IMG/VR virus record: IMGVR_UViG_3300025913_000036
Span: 1-64,000 of that record
Reading direction: 5' to 3' (one strand)
Length of the DNA stretch: 64,000 nt
From: a virus
Shown: positions 2,311 to 47,025 of the stretch, piece after piece
How the letters are laid out: the number at the start of each line of letters is the position of its first letter
Position numbering within the stretch: position 1 is the first letter of the stretch
The notes under the pieces: generated by a model
Seen by the model: the letters and a program-made list of their open reading frames with translations, nothing else
The model's database searches: none
What the model was told of the DNA's origin: nothing
Program-made: the position numbers and the translations under genes

Positions 2311-2372
2311 TCCAAAAAGAAAAGCGGTTTCGCTAAAATGCGACCCGTGGGTCACACTCTGCGAAACCGCTT
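2311..2372 (-). terminator. intrinsic terminator with an 18-bp dyad in its loop
   Basis: A 12-bp stem (AAGCGGTTTCGC / GCGAAACCGCTT, 2322-2333 with 2361-2372) is followed on the minus strand by TTTTCTTTTT. The loop is the 18-bp dyad at 2339-2356. About 34 bp are nearly identical to the element at 17413-17464. Confidence 0.7.
2339..2356. repeat. dispersed 18-bp dyad, copy 1
   Basis: Plus strand TGCGACCCGTGGGTCACA, inside the terminator loop upstream of the tail tube gene. Confidence 0.8.
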
Positions 2373-5902: not shown

Positions 5903-5920
5903 TGTGACCCTTGGGTCGCA
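5903..5920. repeat. dispersed 18-bp dyad, copy 2
   Basis: Plus strand TGTGACCCTTGGGTCGCA, in the 45-bp gap between the fibre-like gene and the connector gene. On the sense (minus) strand the third base pair would be C.A, so a pure RNA hairpin would be imperfect here. Confidence 0.75.
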
Positions 5921-12190: not shown

Positions 12191-12762
12191 GCGACTACTG
12201 GCTTCCGTTTCAAGAGTTCGTTATGAACCGCCTGGATGAATGCTGTCTTGTCAACCTGGTGTCCTGGGCAGTCGTGGGTCGTCTTTGGGTCTTCGCGATG
12301 CAGCTTTAACGATGCGCTGTCAAGATGGAAGACTTCGCAGAGCGTGGCGACCGCGCTGATCGCATTCAGATGCACGATGCCGCCTTTGCCGTTCTGGAAG
12401 TCATCGGAGGCTTTAGGCAGGACGTAGTTGCCGACCATTTCCACGCCAAGATGCGTGTTATTAAACGATGGGCTGTGAACGCCGGGAGTGGCTATCGGAG
12501 TGAAGCAGCAGATGCCTTCCGGGGCCACGAACAGATGCGGTCCCGCGTGCCATTTCATCGTGTCGCGATAGTACTCCACCAGAATTTCCAGATTGTCCTG
12601 CCAGGAGTGCTTCGCCCAGGCCGCAAGATCGGGATCGGCGGTATTATGCAGCACGATGCCCTTTGGCTTCCAGGCGCTTTTCTCCACGCTCAGAGACTTC
12701 GCGTATGCCCTGAAGGCCAAAGGATCGAACTTCAGATTGACGATCTGTATCCAGCGTGCCAT
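12187..12762 (-). CDS. N-acetylmuramoyl-L-alanine amidase endolysin (Amidase_2)
   Basis: This 191-aa protein has Amidase_2/PGRP features: GIVLHNTAD near residue 37 (first zinc histidine), WHAGPHLFV near 72-80, GVEMVGNY near 107 and THDCPG near 163 (last zinc ligands). It cleaves the amide between N-acetylmuramic acid and L-alanine at the end of infection. No signal peptide is visible, so it needs a holin for export; the holin candidate follows it directly. Confidence 0.9.
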   Translation of the reverse strand: MARWIQIVNLKFDPLAFRAYAKSLSVEKSAWKPKGIVLHNTADPDLAAWAKHSWQDNLEILVEYYRDTMKWHAGPHLFVAPEGICCFTPIATPGVHSPSFNNTHLGVEMVGNYVLPKASDDFQNGKGGIVHLNAISAVATLCEVFHLDSASLKLHREDPKTTHDCPGHQVDKTAFIQAVHNELLKRKPVVA

Positions 12763-15297: not shown

Positions 15298-16023
15298 CTA
15301 GTCAGTCTCGAAGATGATCGACGGGAAAGCCGTCTTAAGCTGCGCCAGCGTCGGATTACCCGGCACGCCGCCCGCAATATCGGAGGCAATGCGCGGGGCA
15401 TAGACACTGCAAACGCCGCCATCGAAGGCATTGGAAGCATAGTCGCTGCCCAGGTCTTGTCCCTTCACGATGGTATGGCTCACGATGATACAGCCGCCCG
15501 GAGAGAGCGTCTGTCTGCCATCGTTGGCCTTCGTAACCGCCGTGACATCGCCGTGCAGGAAAGCAAATGCGGTCCCTGCAAGCAGGGTGACGCGCTTAGT
15601 GCCGCTGTTGTAGCTGCCCACCACGATGTCTTCCGCCGTGCCGCCGCCCGCAGCGATGTGGAGCACGTCGCCTGGGTTGATGAAAAGCGATCCCGTGGTC
15701 AGTAGGAAGCTGACGGCACCAGCCGCGATAGCGCCGTTATTGGTATCGGCGGGCATGGCGTCGGTGAAGGGTCCGAACTTCTTGCTCGCCGTGATGCGGC
15801 AGAGCACCGTTCCGTACCGGATATATTTCTGTCCCGCGAGGATGGTGCGGCCTTCCTGCGCGATAGTCGTATCCGCAAGCTGCTGGCCCACCGTGGACCA
15901 ATCGATTGTAACCGCGCCCATCTTATAGTGCGGCACGCCCGATGCGATGACGCCTACCGTACGGCCTAGATTGCCTGGAAATCCCAGGATCGGGCTGTTC
16001 TGCCCATATCCGCCCTGGCTCAT
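15298..16023 (-). CDS. head decoration protein (lambda gpD-like)
   Basis: This 241-aa protein has the features of bacteriophage lambda head decoration protein D family members: KYIRYGTVLCRITASKKFGPF near residues 66-87 and a small beta-rich fold between Ala/Gly loops. It is longer than lambda gpD (110 aa), so extra domains are present. It starts inside the stop codon of the protease (TAATG), showing translational coupling. It stabilises the expanded capsid. Confidence 0.75.
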   Translation of the reverse strand: MSQGGYGQNSPILGFPGNLGRTVGVIASGVPHYKMGAVTIDWSTVGQQLADTTIAQEGRTILAGQKYIRYGTVLCRITASKKFGPFTDAMPADTNNGAIAAGAVSFLLTTGSLFINPGDVLHIAAGGGTAEDIVVGSYNSGTKRVTLLAGTAFAFLHGDVTAVTKANDGRQTLSPGGCIIVSHTIVKGQDLGSDYASNAFDGGVCSVYAPRIASDIAGGVPGNPTLAQLKTAFPSIIFETD

Positions 16024-17387
16024 TATTTCGTCTCCTGTAGGCCATAGGTGGCCTTGACGTGCGCGGCAGCGGCATCGAGGAACTTCTGCTCGGCGGTAGC
16101 ATTTGCAGCGGCTGCCTTATCGCTGGCTTCTTCGCCGCTGATCTTATCGGTAGTAGGCGTGAGAACACTGGCGACCGCTCGGCTCATGGTCGCATCGTAG
16201 ACTTCTGGAGACTTGGCGCGAAGAGCGCACTCCGCATCGACTTCGCCAGGCTTGACCTTGCCAGCAGTGACAAGCGCCATGACCGCGTTGCGGTTCTCCG
16301 TGGCGCGTGCAGACTGGAGGGCGGCATCGTGGGCAGCGACAGACGCCATCGCTTCGTCCCGCTCCTTCGTGATGCGCTGAAGGTTGGCTTCTAGCTGTGC
16401 TTTCTCAGGATCGCTGGTAACACTGGAGCCGCCTGATGGAGCGGTTCTGGTATCGGTTGCAGCCTGAGCGCCGCCGAGGAATCCCTTCATCGATGCCGAC
16501 AATTCGTCCCAAATTTCATTTGGCTTTCGCATGGATGTTCCTTCCGGGTCTTGCCGTGCTTCAACCCGTATCTTGTTCTTCGATCCTGGGACATGGTTCT
16601 GAAGGGCGCACATGACGGCATCGTGTCCCGCGACGCCATCGAGAAGCCCTTCCGAAACTGCTTGTGCGCCAAGAAAGGAGCGGCCATCGCTGACTGCTGA
16701 CACTTTCTCAGGCTTCATCCTACGGCCCGATGCCACGGCTGCGCGAAAAAGATCGGCAATCCCATCGATGCGCTTCTGGATTTCGGTGCGCTGTGCATCG
16801 GTGATTTTAGTACCGGCTATTCCTACGGCTTTGTGGTCGCCGCTGCGGAAGACTTCAACCTTGATCCCGATGCGCTTATACATTTCGCTGGTATCGGTCA
16901 GGTAGGTGTAGCATCCGATGTTTCCCGACTGGCTTTCGGGCCTGCCGTAGATGCCATCGGCCTGCGAGCATATCCAGTACGCGCCTGAGCAGCACATCCC
17001 GGATACGTAGGCCAGGACAGGCTTCTGACATCGAGCCACGGCTTCGGCGGCTGCGGGAGTTCCGAGCACTTCCCCGCCAGGGCAGTCACAGTCTATCAGG
17101 ATGGCCTTGACCGATGGATCGCTGCTGGCTGCATCGATGGCTTCCGCGAAGGATGTGCTCGATGTGCCTCCCATGTAGCGCGTCCACCAGCCGCCGTCCT
17201 TGGTAAGCGGGCCTTTGAGAGCGATGGTCGCCACGCCAGCATCGACAGCGTAGTCAGGCTCTTTGTCGTCATCGAGCCAGGACGCCTGTATCGCCAGTAT
17301 TTCCGTTGCGGAGAGCAGGGAGATACTAGCGGTTAGTATGTCGGTGCGCTGTTGATCGCAGGCCCATGCTCCCAGGAATGGGATCAT
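16023..17387 (-). CDS. S49/SppA-type capsid maturation protease with scaffold-like tail
   Basis: From the ATG at 17387 this is a 454-aa protein. The N-terminal 270 residues match S49 peptidases (lambda gpC type): AILIDCDCPGGEVLG, the VLAYVSGMCCSGAYWICSQAD catalytic region around the expected Ser, and RSGDHKAVG with the expected Lys. The C-terminal 180 residues are helical and Ala/Glu-rich, as in lambda Nu3 scaffolds fused to gpC. It processes the portal or capsid during prohead maturation. An upstream start at 17438 would lie in the terminator hairpin and is rejected. Confidence 0.85.
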   Translation of the reverse strand: MIPFLGAWACDQQRTDILTASISLLSATEILAIQASWLDDDKEPDYAVDAGVATIALKGPLTKDGGWWTRYMGGTSSTSFAEAIDAASSDPSVKAILIDCDCPGGEVLGTPAAAEAVARCQKPVLAYVSGMCCSGAYWICSQADGIYGRPESQSGNIGCYTYLTDTSEMYKRIGIKVEVFRSGDHKAVGIAGTKITDAQRTEIQKRIDGIADLFRAAVASGRRMKPEKVSAVSDGRSFLGAQAVSEGLLDGVAGHDAVMCALQNHVPGSKNKIRVEARQDPEGTSMRKPNEIWDELSASMKGFLGGAQAATDTRTAPSGGSSVTSDPEKAQLEANLQRITKERDEAMASVAAHDAALQSARATENRNAVMALVTAGKVKPGEVDAECALRAKSPEVYDATMSRAVASVLTPTTDKISGEEASDKAAAANATAEQKFLDAAAAHVKATYGLQETK

Positions 17388-17401: not shown

Positions 17402-17464
17402 CAAAAGAAAAAGCCGGTTTCGCTAAAATGCGACCCACGGGTCACACTTTCAAACGAAACCGGC
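17402..17464 (-). terminator. intrinsic terminator with an 18-bp dyad in its loop
   Basis: The stem GCCGGTTTCG / CGAAACCGGC is followed on the minus strand by TTTTTCTTTT. The loop carries dyad copy 4. The arrangement is the same as at 2311-2372, with a shared stretch of about 34 bp. Confidence 0.75.
17429..17446. repeat. dispersed 18-bp dyad, copy 4
   Basis: Plus strand TGCGACCCACGGGTCACA, in the loop of the terminator before the protease gene. Confidence 0.8.
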
Positions 17465-17632
17465 ATGATGCTCGATTTGGCTTCTTAGTCGATGGATTTT
17501 CCGACAGACCAGCCGCGTATCCGCGACATATGGGAAAACCCATCGACAGCTATGAAATTATGATTTATCGCGGCGTCTGCCGGAAGAGAAACAGCAGACG
17601 CCGCGAAAGGGCTTGGAGGTAGTGCCGAATTC

Positions 17633-17662
17633 AGTATAATCGCATAATTATACGTTTGTCAA
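17633..17662 (-). promoter_or_regulatory. strong sigma70-type promoter of the candidate RNA
   Basis: On the minus strand a perfect -35 TTGACA (17657-17662) and a -10 TATACT (17633-17638) are separated by 18 bp in an AT-rich spacer. Nothing downstream before 17387 is an open frame on this strand, so the first product is non-coding. Confidence 0.7.
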
Positions 17663-17869
17663 CTATCGGGATGATTTTGATCGACTTGCGGCTACATCCG
17701 TGTACCGCTTCAGGCACGACTGATGCTCGATGGATGCGGTCTGGGCCTTGGCCTGAGCCACGATTTGGGCATGGTGGTATCGCTGTATGTCGGAAAGTAA
17801 GTTCTCGATACTGGAAAGCCTCTGCTCTAGAATATCTAATGCTTCATTGATCTGCGCGGCGCTTTTCAT
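17663..17869 (-). CDS. small coiled-coil protein, unknown
   Basis: This 68-aa protein is almost wholly helical, with Leu/Ile heptads at residues about 5-35, and ends in a Ser/Arg/Lys-rich tail. Its ATG overlaps the stop of the zinc-binding gene upstream by 4 bp, so the two form a small coupled unit inserted between portal and protease. The function is not recognisable. Confidence 0.5.
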   Translation of the reverse strand: MKSAAQINEALDILEQRLSSIENLLSDIQRYHHAQIVAQAKAQTASIEHQSCLKRYTDVAASRSKSSR

Positions 17870-18114
17870 GTTGGCTTGGCTTTCATCCCAAGGTCATCTA
17901 CTAACTCTAGTAGGAAGTTTTCGGCACACTTTCGACAGAGATCGAAGTGATTTACTGTACCATCGTTATTCACGCTTTCGCGGCGAATTGTAAAGTTATT
18001 TCCGTGTATTGTTATATTATGAATTGCTGGCATAGGTTGGGAGGATCGCTTATTGGAGCGCCTGTCGGGGGCAGCGCCGCCACATTTATCACAAGTTCTG
18101 CCCTCTCTATCCAT
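17866..18114 (-). CDS. small zinc-binding protein, unknown
   Basis: This 82-aa protein has a CDKC motif near residues 8-11 and CRKC near 59-62, enough for one treble-clef or ribbon zinc site. A basic stretch (RRSNKRSSQ) and a beta-rich middle lie between. It is separated from the portal gene by 45 bp. Small zinc proteins are common accessory insertions in late operons; its target is unknown. Confidence 0.55.
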   Translation of the reverse strand: MDREGRTCDKCGGAAPDRRSNKRSSQPMPAIHNITIHGNNFTIRRESVNNDGTVNHFDLCRKCAENFLLELVDDLGMKAKPT

Positions 18115-24790: not shown

Positions 24791-24820
24791 AGTATCCGAT
24801 GCTTTTTGGCATTTTGTCAA
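24791..24820 (-). promoter_or_regulatory. probable late-operon promoter
   Basis: On the minus strand a perfect -35 TTGACA (24815-24820) and a -10 GATACT (24791-24796) are 18 bp apart. Transcription would start about 28 bp before the ATG of the nuclease-like gene and run through the packaging and head genes. Confidence 0.65.
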
Positions 24821-24902
24821 CAGAATTGTACCCTATGCGCCAAAGTTGTCGCTAGTCGATAGGTTCCCATCGTGCTCTCGGTGATTATGGGCGGTCTGCT
24901 CT

Positions 24903-24991
24903 CGCGCGCACGCGCGTATATAGGTACGCACGCACACGCGATATACGCGTGTAGACGCGCAGGTACACATGTACGCGCGCACGCAGGCGCG
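24903..24991. other. alternating purine-pyrimidine tract (potential Z-DNA)
   Basis: About 89 bp consist almost wholly of CG, CA, TG and TA steps, such as CGCGCGCACGCGCGTATATA, with few phase breaks. Such tracts can flip to left-handed DNA under negative supercoiling. It lies between the late promoter and the AT-richer inverted-repeat block. Confidence 0.65.
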
Positions 24992-25066
24992 TTATCGAGA
25001 GATACTTACTATAGAATACAGTCTTGTGCTTACTCTAGGCTTATCGGGGTAAGTGCAGCGCCCATA

Positions 25067-25291
25067 GACAGCACCTCCACGATGAAAATCCATGAGTTTG
25101 TACAAACTGGTGATAGAGCGTCAGTATATCGCAGGATCATCGAGACTTTGATGCGGTCTACTACTGGGCTTGCTAGTAGACACGTTGTATCCAATCCATG
25201 AAAAGCAAATTTGTTTCGATGTTTCCATCAAGGCTTTTCCACTATTCGATAATTTGTACTAACTGCTCAGATGCATCGTGGAGGTGCTGTC
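25067..25291. repeat. 18-bp inverted repeat enclosing a 189-bp AT-richer segment; origin or control candidate
   Basis: GACAGCACCTCCACGATG (25067-25084) is perfectly inverted at 25274-25291. Inside are a perfect 14-bp palindrome AGTTTGTACAAACT (25095-25108), a near copy AATTTGTACTAACT (25251-25264) and a dyad GTCTACTA-N10-TAGTAGAC (25156-25181). There is no convincing open frame. The layout suits a replication origin or early/late operator complex, but either role is inference. Confidence 0.5.
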
Positions 25292-25391
25292 GTCCGATGT
25301 TCTTCTTTATTCTCCGGTATCGCTCTCCGTCAGGATCAGGGCTGTGCTTATAGCTATACGCGCGCGTGCGCGAGGCTGCATCGGGTAATAA

Positions 25392-25409
25392 TGCGACCCA
25401 CGGGTCACA
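25392..25409. repeat. dispersed 18-bp dyad, copy 5
   Basis: Plus strand TGCGACCCACGGGTCACA, in the leader region of the early plus-strand operon, followed by a T-rich stretch. Confidence 0.8.
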
Positions 25410-25566
25410 TTATTCTTTTTCAATTTCGGATTATCGGGAAAGCCTTTTTTCATTTTTGGCTATCGGCGATAGGGACATGACTCCGGTAGATGGGCGTCGT
25501 CGGAGAATGCTGCAAGACGACGCTCGGCATACCCGGACGGGCCGAAACCGACGGATAGCCGCAGAA

Positions 25567-25617
25567 TTCGGCAGGCTCACCTGATGCCATTGCACAGGTT
25601 GCAAGCAGCCTGCCGAA
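25567..25617 (+). promoter_or_regulatory. structured leader of the first early gene
   Basis: TTCGGCAGGCT (25567-25577) pairs with AGCCTGCCGAA (25607-25617), and inner ACCTG/CAGGT arms (25579-25583, 25595-25599) extend the stem. It ends 27 bases before the first early ATG. Confidence 0.45.
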
Positions 25618-25644
25618 CCAGTCACAACCGAAAGGGACCGACCA

Positions 25645-26145
25645 ATGCTACGCACTGAAAACCGCATCGATCAATTCGCCGCATTTTGCGATAACCTACA
25701 TGCTATCGCTCACGATGCGCTCATCGCAGAAACCGCTATCTGCGATGTACTTAACCGCACTGGATGCGGAACGGAGAAGTGGGCGAAGATCGCTGCTCCG
25801 ATGGGCACGTTTGAGCTAGATTTTGAGACGGATAGCGGTGAAGAAAAGACCGAACGGTACAACGCTGCACGCATCCAATCGATCATCGATAATGCCATGA
25901 TCGCTCACATGCGGTTCAGCCTGCTCGTCACCCAGGGTTACATCGCTGAGGACGGCGGCAAGCGAGAGTTTACCGCCGTCGAACGAGACACTATTGCCGG
26001 ATGCCTCGATACCGTCAACGAGTGTGTGCCACACCTGAGGGTATTCGTTGAAACCGCCTTGCTGCTGGCAAGCTACCTGGCGGATGCCAAGACCTCCAAA
26101 CTTCGCCGTAAGGGTTTCAACAAAATTCCGTCCTTCTGCCGCTAA
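25645..26145 (+). CDS. early protein, unknown
   Basis: This 166-aa mostly helical protein is the first gene of the plus-strand early region, with AAAGGGA upstream of the ATG. It is acidic in the middle (DFETDSGEEKTE) and basic at the end. No motif is recognised. First-position early phage genes often encode host-takeover or regulatory proteins. Confidence 0.6.
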   Translation: MLRTENRIDQFAAFCDNLHAIAHDALIAETAICDVLNRTGCGTEKWAKIAAPMGTFELDFETDSGEEKTERYNAARIQSIIDNAMIAHMRFSLLVTQGYIAEDGGKREFTAVERDTIAGCLDTVNECVPHLRVFVETALLLASYLADAKTSKLRRKGFNKIPSFCR

Positions 26146-26687: not shown

Positions 26688-26711
26688 ACCGGGTATCGTG
26701 TGATACCCGGT
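26688..26711 (+). terminator. hairpin between early genes
   Basis: A perfect 10-bp stem (ACCGGGTATC / GATACCCGGT) with a GTGT loop, 22 bases past a stop codon. There is no T-run after it. Confidence 0.55.
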
Positions 26712-26744
26712 GCTTCATCACGTCTGCCCGGAATTGGGCGGCGA

Positions 26745-26776
26745 CGGGCGGCAGCGCGACATCGCGCTGCCGCCCG
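26745..26776 (+). promoter_or_regulatory. GC-rich 15-bp inverted repeat before a ribosome binding site
   Basis: Arms of 15 bp (CGGGCGGCAGCGCGA and its complement) are separated by two bases and end just before AGGAG of the next gene. It could act as an operator or a translation-modulating hairpin. Confidence 0.55.
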
Positions 26777-27776: not shown

Positions 27777-27983
27777 CCCTGCGCCTGTACGGCTAACGTC
27801 GTGCCACTGTGGGCCATTTCCGGTTTTAGGCGTCTGTCAGCCACGGCAGACGCCTAAAGTGTCACAGAACCGCCTTAGCGCGTCAAAGCGCAATGGTTCC
27901 GCTTAACGTCTGCGGTACACAGTTATCACACATGGGCCAATTGGCTCGCTTTCCTGGTCCGCAAGGGCAGAAAGGTTGATGAA
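27777..27983 (+). other. structured intergenic segment
   Basis: No gene is seen in these 207 bases. A 12-bp stem (TTTAGGCGTCTG at 27825-27836 with its complement at 27847-27858) is followed by a GAACC ... GGTTC stem enclosing GCGC ... GCGC (27868-27900). It may be a 3' terminator region or a small RNA. Confidence 0.45.
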
Positions 27984-31557: not shown

Positions 31558-32013
31558 ATGAGACAGCATAGACTAACCGTGCAGGACGCCGAGGCTACAG
31601 GCTGCTGCTCGAAGGGCATCGAGCGTTTTTCACAGGGTCAGAAGTCGATGAGTGTCGCCAGGGCGCTGCGTCTCTCACGTCACAGGAAGTATACATACTA
31701 CCGAGATTGTGTACTATCCGTGATATGCCATAAATTCGGACTTTCCGTCTCCTTTGCTCTGTCCTGCCTGGAGGCGGTGACATGTGAAAACGTTGAGATT
31801 TATGTGGACGGTACACGGCGCGCGCAAGCAAGGTCAGAAGAACCGGATGTTAGCCCTGCGGTTATTAGATGTAACCGCCAGGATGCGGCGACAGATGCAG
31901 CCTGGGCCGCATCATCTGCGGCCCAGGCTGCCCTATATACAAAGTCCGAACTAGACCGGCAGGATCAGTGGATACTCGATCATCTTCCCGCACTGGATAA
32001 GGAATGCCGATGA
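31558..32013 (+). CDS. early protein, unknown
   Basis: The ATG at 31558 follows GAAGGA; an ATG at 31543 overlapping the previous stop is an alternative. The product is about 151 aa with a basic Cys-containing N-terminal half and an Ala/Gln/Asp-rich helical C-terminal half (TDAAWAASSAAQAA). No motif is recognised. Confidence 0.5.
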   Translation: MRQHRLTVQDAEATGCCSKGIERFSQGQKSMSVARALRLSRHRKYTYYRDCVLSVICHKFGLSVSFALSCLEAVTCENVEIYVDGTRRAQARSEEPDVSPAVIRCNRQDAATDAAWAASSAAQAALYTKSELDRQDQWILDHLPALDKECR

Positions 32014-35812: not shown

Positions 35813-36045
35813 ACCGTGAACAACTTAAAGCCGCATTCGATGAAGCGGTAGCAGATAGCCTTGCTCAGAACATGGTATGCGCTGAAATAGCACAGCGATG
35901 GAAGGCCATCGATCAGGAGAGTCAGAAGGTACGCAAGCTGGCCCAGGCTCTTAACGAGCGCGCCCTGTACTTGCAGAAAGCCCTGGAAGTACAGGGCAAA
36001 ATCGATAAGATGAAGGAGCGGCCCGATGCGAACGACATCATTTAA
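35803..36045 (+). CDS. small coiled-coil protein
   Basis: This 80-aa protein is almost entirely one helix with heptads (residues about 8-72). ATGs at 35803 and 35809 are both possible; AAAGG lies upstream. It overlaps the next small DNA-binding gene by 20 bp. Confidence 0.55.
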   Translation: MEMNREQLKAAFDEAVADSLAQNMVCAEIAQRWKAIDQESQKVRKLAQALNERALYLQKALEVQGKIDKMKERPDANDII

Positions 36046-44803: not shown

Positions 44804-45751
44804 GTGGATACCGCATCCTTCTTCAGCAGCATCTTCTCGGGATACTCCAATCCCGAGAAACGATGGATCGAACTTAGAATGATGACGCCCGGAAAGAAAG
44901 GAATGGATATTCGCTGGTTCCCGATCACGGATACTGGGATCATGTACGCCACGCGCTGCGCCCAGGACAGGTCGGGCACGATGGACGTGTACTATGGCGT
45001 CCTGCCCAGGACAAAGACGCACGGCGTCAAGGATAGCGTGGCCGTATCGAGAGTGCTGTTCGCGGAAATCGATGGAGCGTCGGGCGGCATGGATGGAGCC
45101 TTGCGATTGCTCTGTACCGCCATCGCGGAGCAGCGCATCAAAAGCCCTTCCCTGATGGTTACGAGCGGCGGAGGCGTTCACACCTACTGGCGCTTAAGCG
45201 ATACTTGCGTCACGGAGCAGATAGATATGTCGATGCTCCTGAAGCGCCTGTGCGTGGCGATTGGCGGCGTCGAGTGGCACGGACGAACACTAAAGCCCAT
45301 CAAGGATGGTTCTCCGTTTGCCGATCCCGTATCGACCGATCTTCCGCGCATCCTGCGCGTGCCCGGAACCTGGAACCATAAGCCATCGAGAAACTGCCCG
45401 GTACGGATGGTCGATTGGTTCGATGGAGACGCGCCGATAAGTGTGGCCCAGTGGGACGCGCTTTTACCGCCTGGACCATCACTGCCGCCCATGCAGGAGT
45501 ATGCTCCAGAGCGCGATACCATGACAGGACTGCCACCTAAGACAGAGCAAGAGCTATATACGGGATGGCCCATCGGCCAGCGATGGCAGGCTATCCGAAA
45601 GATACTCTACGTAGGCAGGAAGCGCAACCTTAACCTTGATGACCTGGTACGCACCTTTTGTACCAATAATCCCGGTGCAGAGTATCGAGACTTCGATCAG
45701 CTAGTTCGCTCCACACTCACCAATGTTTATCCCGATCCCAACTACCTTTAA
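44804..45751 (+). CDS. AEP-type primase (RepB/PrimPol-like)
   Basis: This 315-aa protein starts with GTG after GAAAGG. The archaeo-eukaryotic primase core is suggested by the acidic motif FAEIDGASGG near residues 86-95, SGGGVHTYWRL near 121-131 (conserved His 126) and LPRILRVPGTWNHK near 180. The C-terminal part (about 240-315) could be a PriCT-like helical domain. It would prime phage DNA replication; no DNA polymerase gene is visible, so host polymerase is probably used. Confidence 0.8.
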   Translation: MDTASFFSSIFSGYSNPEKRWIELRMMTPGKKGMDIRWFPITDTGIMYATRCAQDRSGTMDVYYGVLPRTKTHGVKDSVAVSRVLFAEIDGASGGMDGALRLLCTAIAEQRIKSPSLMVTSGGGVHTYWRLSDTCVTEQIDMSMLLKRLCVAIGGVEWHGRTLKPIKDGSPFADPVSTDLPRILRVPGTWNHKPSRNCPVRMVDWFDGDAPISVAQWDALLPPGPSLPPMQEYAPERDTMTGLPPKTEQELYTGWPIGQRWQAIRKILYVGRKRNLNLDDLVRTFCTNNPGAEYRDFDQLVRSTLTNVYPDPNYL

Positions 45752-46481: not shown

Positions 46482-47025
46482 GATAGCGACAAAGCCTGAA
46501 ATGTATGACCTGCTGCGGCGTGGCAGGTTGGGCAATCACTGGCCGCTGATAACGCCATGTGAGGCCGCACAGCTTCATCCGATGACGCATGTGGGTATTA
46601 GGTGGACTCACGGCGCAGGAGGCCCGTGCGTGCCCTTAATCTATGCGATGGACCTGGAGGCACAGCTATCGCGGCTGGAAGCAGAAGGCTGGCCCAGAGA
46701 TGGGTTCTGTATCGGTCAGATCGTAAACGTCGAGCATCACATCACGCTACAGGGCGAAGTGATGCGCTCCATCAGGCACTATGAGATGACCTACAGCCAC
46801 GTTCAGAAGCCAATGCGGCAGGCATTCCGTGAGCAGACTTTATCTGCTCACGGAATGATGGCTTTGGCCCTGCTGCAAACCTACTGTGATCCCGGCACGC
46901 TCGATGACTTCCAGGAATTGTGGGACGAATATCCCGATGCGATTATCGAATTCACGGCCTACCAGATCACGCACGGCAGCACGAAGAAGCGCAATACCGT
47001 GATCTGGGAAATGAGAGACTACTGA
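46474..47025 (+). CDS. early protein, unknown
   Basis: This 183-aa mixed-fold protein has no recognised family. A perfect 15-bp hairpin is embedded in its coding sequence at 46823-46857. Its start overlaps the preceding gene by 8 bp. Confidence 0.6.
   Translation: MAKIATKPEMYDLLRRGRLGNHWPLITPCEAAQLHPMTHVGIRWTHGAGGPCVPLIYAMDLEAQLSRLEAEGWPRDGFCIGQIVNVEHHITLQGEVMRSIRHYEMTYSHVQKPMRQAFREQTLSAHGMMALALLQTYCDPGTLDDFQELWDEYPDAIIEFTAYQITHGSTKKRNTVIWEMRDY
46823..46857 (+). other. perfect 15-bp hairpin inside a gene
   Basis: CATTCCGTGAGCAGA is followed by the loop CTTTA and the exact complement. Such a long perfect stem is unusual in coding sequence. Confidence 0.55.

Follow-up and report, generated by a model that had tools for sequence, protein, structure and literature searches.

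A predicted promoter-RNA-terminator unit without a protein gene ahead of the capsid genes of an unclassified phage

Why should the late genes of a phage be interrupted, directly before those for the capsid, by a segment that has its own predicted promoter and terminator and no protein gene? The window, i.e. the whole stretch of 64,000 nucleotides that was analysed, comes from an unclassified phage of ~64 kb (the virus record totals 64,152 bases). On its 24-kb late strand the largest gap between genes, of 275 nt, holds this segment; the next largest is 137 nt. Upstream lie the genes for a terminase-like protein, the portal protein and two small frames with no assigned family, while downstream come an S49-type head maturation protease and then the major head protein. 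The original prediction of a small RNA between the portal region and the protease gene was therefore correct in its placement, except that the two small frames (17663-17869 and 17866-18114) intervene after the portal gene. The GC content of the unit is 0.48, against 0.565 in the late region, which puts it in the lowest 3% of windows. As a prediction from sequence, the succession of promoter, RNA and terminator, with no protein gene among them, has good support, and the unit is probably a regulated leader or a small RNA of a known kind. The features discussed are listed in Table 1.

Table 1. Positions in the window of the unit and of the features compared with it
Feature	Position	Strand	Remarks
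-35 element TTGACA	17657-17662	-	adjoins stop codon of upstream small frame (ends 17663)
-10 element TATACT	17633-17638	-	18-nt spacer to -35
AT-rich dyad GTATAAT-N6-ATTATAC	17634-17653		perfect 7+7; across spacer and -10
Late-strand promoter TTGACA-18-GATACT	24791-24820	-	comparison site, near-consensus
Predicted non-coding RNA	17402-17626	-	~225 nt; from fold and promoter/terminator positions
Stem-loop 1	17568-17606	-	15 bp, 9-nt loop UUUCUCUUC, one U.G pair
Stem-loop 2	17488-17547	-	15 bp, one G.U, apical 6-bp hairpin
Intrinsic terminator stem	17413-17464	-	23 bp, 2-nt bulge, -34.8 kcal/mol
T-tract TTTTTCTTTT	17403-17412	-	3' of terminator stem
Dispersed dyad TGTGACCCGTGGGTCGCA	17429-17446	-	tip of terminator
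Paralogous terminator	2311-2370	-	contains dyad 2339-2356; directly upstream of gene 1373-2296
Dyad copies	2339, 5903, 13005, 17429, 25392, 32312, 36308, 42333, 47940, 52926		
ParB-like protein gene (HTH_ParB)	47996-48958	+	dyad (47940) 38 nt upstream of start codon
S49-type head maturation protease gene	16023-17387	-	directly downstream of unit; start chosen from sequence
Strong hairpins	26688-26776, 27825-27858, 31897-31931, 35962-35997, 46823-46857		

The minus-strand promoter on which the original prediction rested, TTGACA-18-TATACT (17662-17633), is present, and a scan of the 64-kb window found it to be the best sigma70 site and the sole one to match the consensus at 11 of 12 positions. 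From its spacing, the RNA would be expected to start at about 17626. The AT-rich dyad that overlaps it is the sole example of its type in the window, and may serve as an operator or, being symmetric, as a -10 region able to fire both ways. It had been argued that such a promoter is out of place in a late operon unless the RNA is made early or in the lysogen, but the late strand itself opens with the similar site TTGACA-18-GATACT (24820-24791), directly upstream of its first gene, on the same strand and with the same perfect -35 and 18-nt spacer. Because of this, and because a family scan of the frames in the window recognised no integrase or repressor, the lysogenic or early reading is unsupported.

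The fold of the predicted RNA has an energy of -103 kcal/mol, whereas shuffling the sequence 200 times with dinucleotides preserved gives -63.8 ± 4.4 kcal/mol (z = -8.9). When the 225-nt windows of both strands, 4,254 in all, are ranked by GC-corrected fold energy, this stretch comes first and its opposite strand 46th. All three of the stems originally described are found, although the first has 15 bp and not 12; the 15-bp stem with one G.U is the second (17547-17488), and the third is indeed a terminator stem, of 23 bp (17464-17413), followed by TTTTTCTTTT. Stems 1 and 2 contribute about -68 kcal/mol. The segment had also been described as lacking an open frame, and the frames inside it are all short (33 aa on the minus strand), none of them with a good start. 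The parts left unpaired are the 5' tail (ACUACCUCCAA, single-stranded as ACUACCUCC), the loop of stem 1 and the linkers, and these resemble the anti-Shine-Dalgarno sequence. A search of the RNA for a competing fold of the antiterminator or attenuator type found none, the terminator dominating the fold. No Rfam family matched above its gathering score, with only chance-level matches at permissive thresholds, and no DNA match to the promoter-RNA-terminator unit was found in the phages and plasmids searched. A reading as tRNA or tmRNA was rejected. The genome as a whole contains 22 strong perfect or near-perfect hairpins, compared with 5-6 in shuffles, several of them at gene junctions, and the hairpin at 27825 has the arm GGCGTCTG/CAGACGCC in common with stem 1.

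The terminator (17464-17403) is the strongest intrinsic terminator that a simple T-tract search detects in the window, and ends ~20 nt upstream of the start codon of the protease gene. This start is most likely the ATG at 17387, judged by the GGAG Shine-Dalgarno at 17397-17394, the frame being formally open from a GTG at 17438 that falls within the terminator. A consensus scan of the minus strand from 17450 down to 11000 found no other sigma70-like site. A terminator before the capsid genes and no other such site together imply that, for the capsid genes to be expressed, polymerase must either read through or start at a promoter that went unrecognised. A similarly built terminator (2311-2370) has 85% identity to the first over 48 nt and occupies the 137-nt gap, the late strand's second largest. 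When the copies are compared, two outer pairs differ on both sides (GC...GC to AG...CU) such that the stem is kept, and these compensatory changes support the terminator as an RNA structure. The support extends to the terminator only, and the changes have no bearing on stems 1 and 2.

The reading that we prefer, with a probability of roughly 45%, is that the unit is a terminated late leader like lambda pR'-6S-tR' and StxS, the short product of which may act as a small RNA. The host-type sigma70 promoter (17662-17633) would make a highly structured non-coding RNA of ~225 nt, and transcripts would normally stop at the terminator (17464-17403), immediately short of the capsid protease gene and its Shine-Dalgarno. 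A late antitermination signal would let the polymerase carry on through the genes for the protease and the major capsid protein, and the stable short product might double as a small RNA, like StxS. Favouring this is the conjunction of the best sigma70 site, the most structured window, the strongest T-tract terminator and the largest late-strand gap, and the paralogous terminator also directly precedes a gene (1373-2296). What can be observed directly is the promoter match, the strength of the fold, the terminator, the gap, the gene order and the terminator paralogue with its compensatory changes; transcription, termination, antitermination and any action in trans we infer. Against the terminated leader, the two strong upstream stems exceed the needs of a plain leader, and termination could be just partial. 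Among the frames scanned, most of which are without any family, none was recognised as coding for an antiterminator, Q-like or otherwise.

Ranking close behind is a more tentative proposal, that the unit specifies a small RNA that stands alone and acts in trans, coming from an autonomous 'moron'-like cassette of promoter, RNA and terminator inserted between the late genes, and that the 5' tail ACUACCUCC and loop UUUCUCUUC of this RNA pair with ribosome-binding sites. Its own promoter and terminator, the lack of a protein frame, the strong fold and a GC content below that of the late region are what such a cassette would lead one to expect, and the pyrimidine-rich unpaired segments do pair with some phage start regions. 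However, this pairing does not exceed what shuffled segments achieve: against 68 start regions, all of them phage targets, the z-scores were -0.7 for the tail, +0.2 for the loop and -1.5 for linker 2, none above chance. Nor were lysogeny genes found in the frames scanned, and a strong terminator at this position would cut capsid expression without read-through. The terminated late leader is preferred to the stand-alone RNA mainly because the terminator lies so close to the protease start and there is no other sigma70-like site from which the capsid genes might be transcribed. A small RNA, as originally predicted, is hence a reasonable reading, but one inseparable from the terminated late leader, which fits at least as well.

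It is improbable that the unit is simply an internal promoter with a structured 5' leader that boosts the capsid genes, in which a leaky terminator only adjusts how much capsid protein is made relative to packaging proteins and the RNA has no separate function. The unit does lie directly upstream of the protease and capsid genes, with the leader adjoining their ribosome-binding site, but the strongest terminator found would waste most transcripts, and two extra 15-bp stems are left unexplained.

Of what is new here, the dispersed dyad at the tip of the terminator holds the greatest interest, and through it this RNA shares part of its terminator with other loci. The 18-bp dyad, TGYGACCC-NN-GGGTCRCA, has ten copies in the window where 0.04 would be expected by chance. 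Counted from the sequences, nine of the ten precede a start codon by 14-42 nt, and the tenth (25392) is within the large non-coding stretch that separates the two gene directions. The copies are unusually evenly spaced, about 5.6 kb apart (about every 5-6 kb); over the first 53 kb the spacing has a CV of 0.25, with p about 0.0003 relative to random picks of gene starts and about 0.005 on a circle, in a test devised after the sites had been seen. The non-coding stretch between the divergent gene blocks (24791-25645) also contains alternating CG/CA runs and an inverted pair of ACAGCACCTCCACGATG at about 25069 and 25279, and resembles an origin or control region.

Among the copies the variable base of the half-site takes all four possible combinations, and two copies (5903 and 32312) would show C.A mismatches if read as mRNA hairpins, which makes a DNA-binding protein the likelier use of the dyad. 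One candidate would be the ParB-like protein, which reads LGFTRCAAA where chromosomal ParB proteins have GERRWRA, and for which no ParA partner was recognised in the window. A speculative and rather unlikely extension is that this protein binds the roughly ten evenly spaced junction dyads and that its binding at 17429-17446 couples genome organisation or partition to the stopping or releasing of transcription into the capsid genes. That the locus is nothing but a cluster of regulatory palindromes in DNA, the dispersed dyad and the promoter dyad, with the RNA fold as a by-product, would suit the recurrence of the dyad so far above chance and the mismatches at 5903 and 32312, but is very improbable given that stems 1 and 2 lie outside the dyad and that the terminator arms vary compensatorily between the paralogues.

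A search for the exact dyad through 84,980 genomes of bacteria and archaea gave 40 loci, which are scattered over unrelated phyla with one site each and were taken as chance. One viral contig of no clear kinship (L008) has a single extended perfect dyad, AAAAGTGTGACCCATGGGTCACACTTTT, at 12405-12436 along with a DUF932-like gene, which is too little to build on. In IMG/VR, a method that finds close relatives only gave none for the portal, major head protein or terminase, and in sequenced phages these have only matches of 20-27% or none; the helicase and ParB-like protein gave no usable relatives in viral contigs. Relatives of the topoisomerase are numerous, yet otherwise they have next to nothing in common with this phage, while those of the protease, at 28-34% identity, include none with the dyad or a comparably strong fold. 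This is a phage without close relatives in the collections searched, which may omit records very near the window. The locus matters because it puts a predicted non-coding transcription unit, clearly enough defined to be tested, at the point where the phage would turn to expressing its capsid genes, and this in a lineage for which no close sequenced relatives were found. The link between terminator and dispersed dyad provides a handle on late-gene control or DNA organisation in such unstudied phages.

Several known systems resemble parts of this arrangement. Short repeats at gene junctions are found as the SAS and ESAS of cluster K mycobacteriophages, SAS lying just upstream of start codons, and as the stoperators of cluster A (PMC3203893, PMC3029335). 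The dyad is similar in being a short repeat present about ten or more times at gene junctions, but differs from SAS in being an 18-bp near-perfect dyad and not an asymmetric 13-mer, in its even ~5.6-kb spacing, and in that no repressor was identified. The centromere sites IR1-4 of phage N15, bound by SopB, have the half-site TGCGACC (PMC7205306). The dyad has this same half-site and a similarly dispersed placement, although its half-sites are 4 bp apart as opposed to 2 in N15, making it 2 bp wider, and comparison of the ParB-like protein with N15 SopB gave no significant similarity; the half-site match may be regarded as a lead and not an identification. In N15, too, a centromere repeat (45562-45577) lies inside an annotated putative terminator stem-loop (45560-45584), as here.

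Phage morons are autonomous transcription units between late genes (PMC7067206). The unit is moron-like in having its own promoter and intrinsic terminator, a lower GC content and a position between co-oriented late genes, and unlike a moron in having no protein frame and no support for lysogenic expression. In lambda, pR'-6S-tR' consists of a strong sigma70 promoter, a ~200-nt non-coding transcript and a terminator directly before the late genes. The StxS RNA of Stx phages is a by-product of termination at the late promoter, showing that such a short RNA can be a real small RNA (PMC7873438). The present unit differs from these in lying inside the late strand before a protease gene, and not upstream of lysis genes, and in the lack of a recognised Q-like protein or an Rfam match. 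At the level of sequence it agrees with both in its strong sigma70 promoter, an intrinsic terminator within ~200 nt and its position before late genes, and a precedent for a terminated leader exists in phage N15, which has a Q-like antiterminator as well as a putative intrinsic terminator 13 bases before the gene for its major capsid protein.
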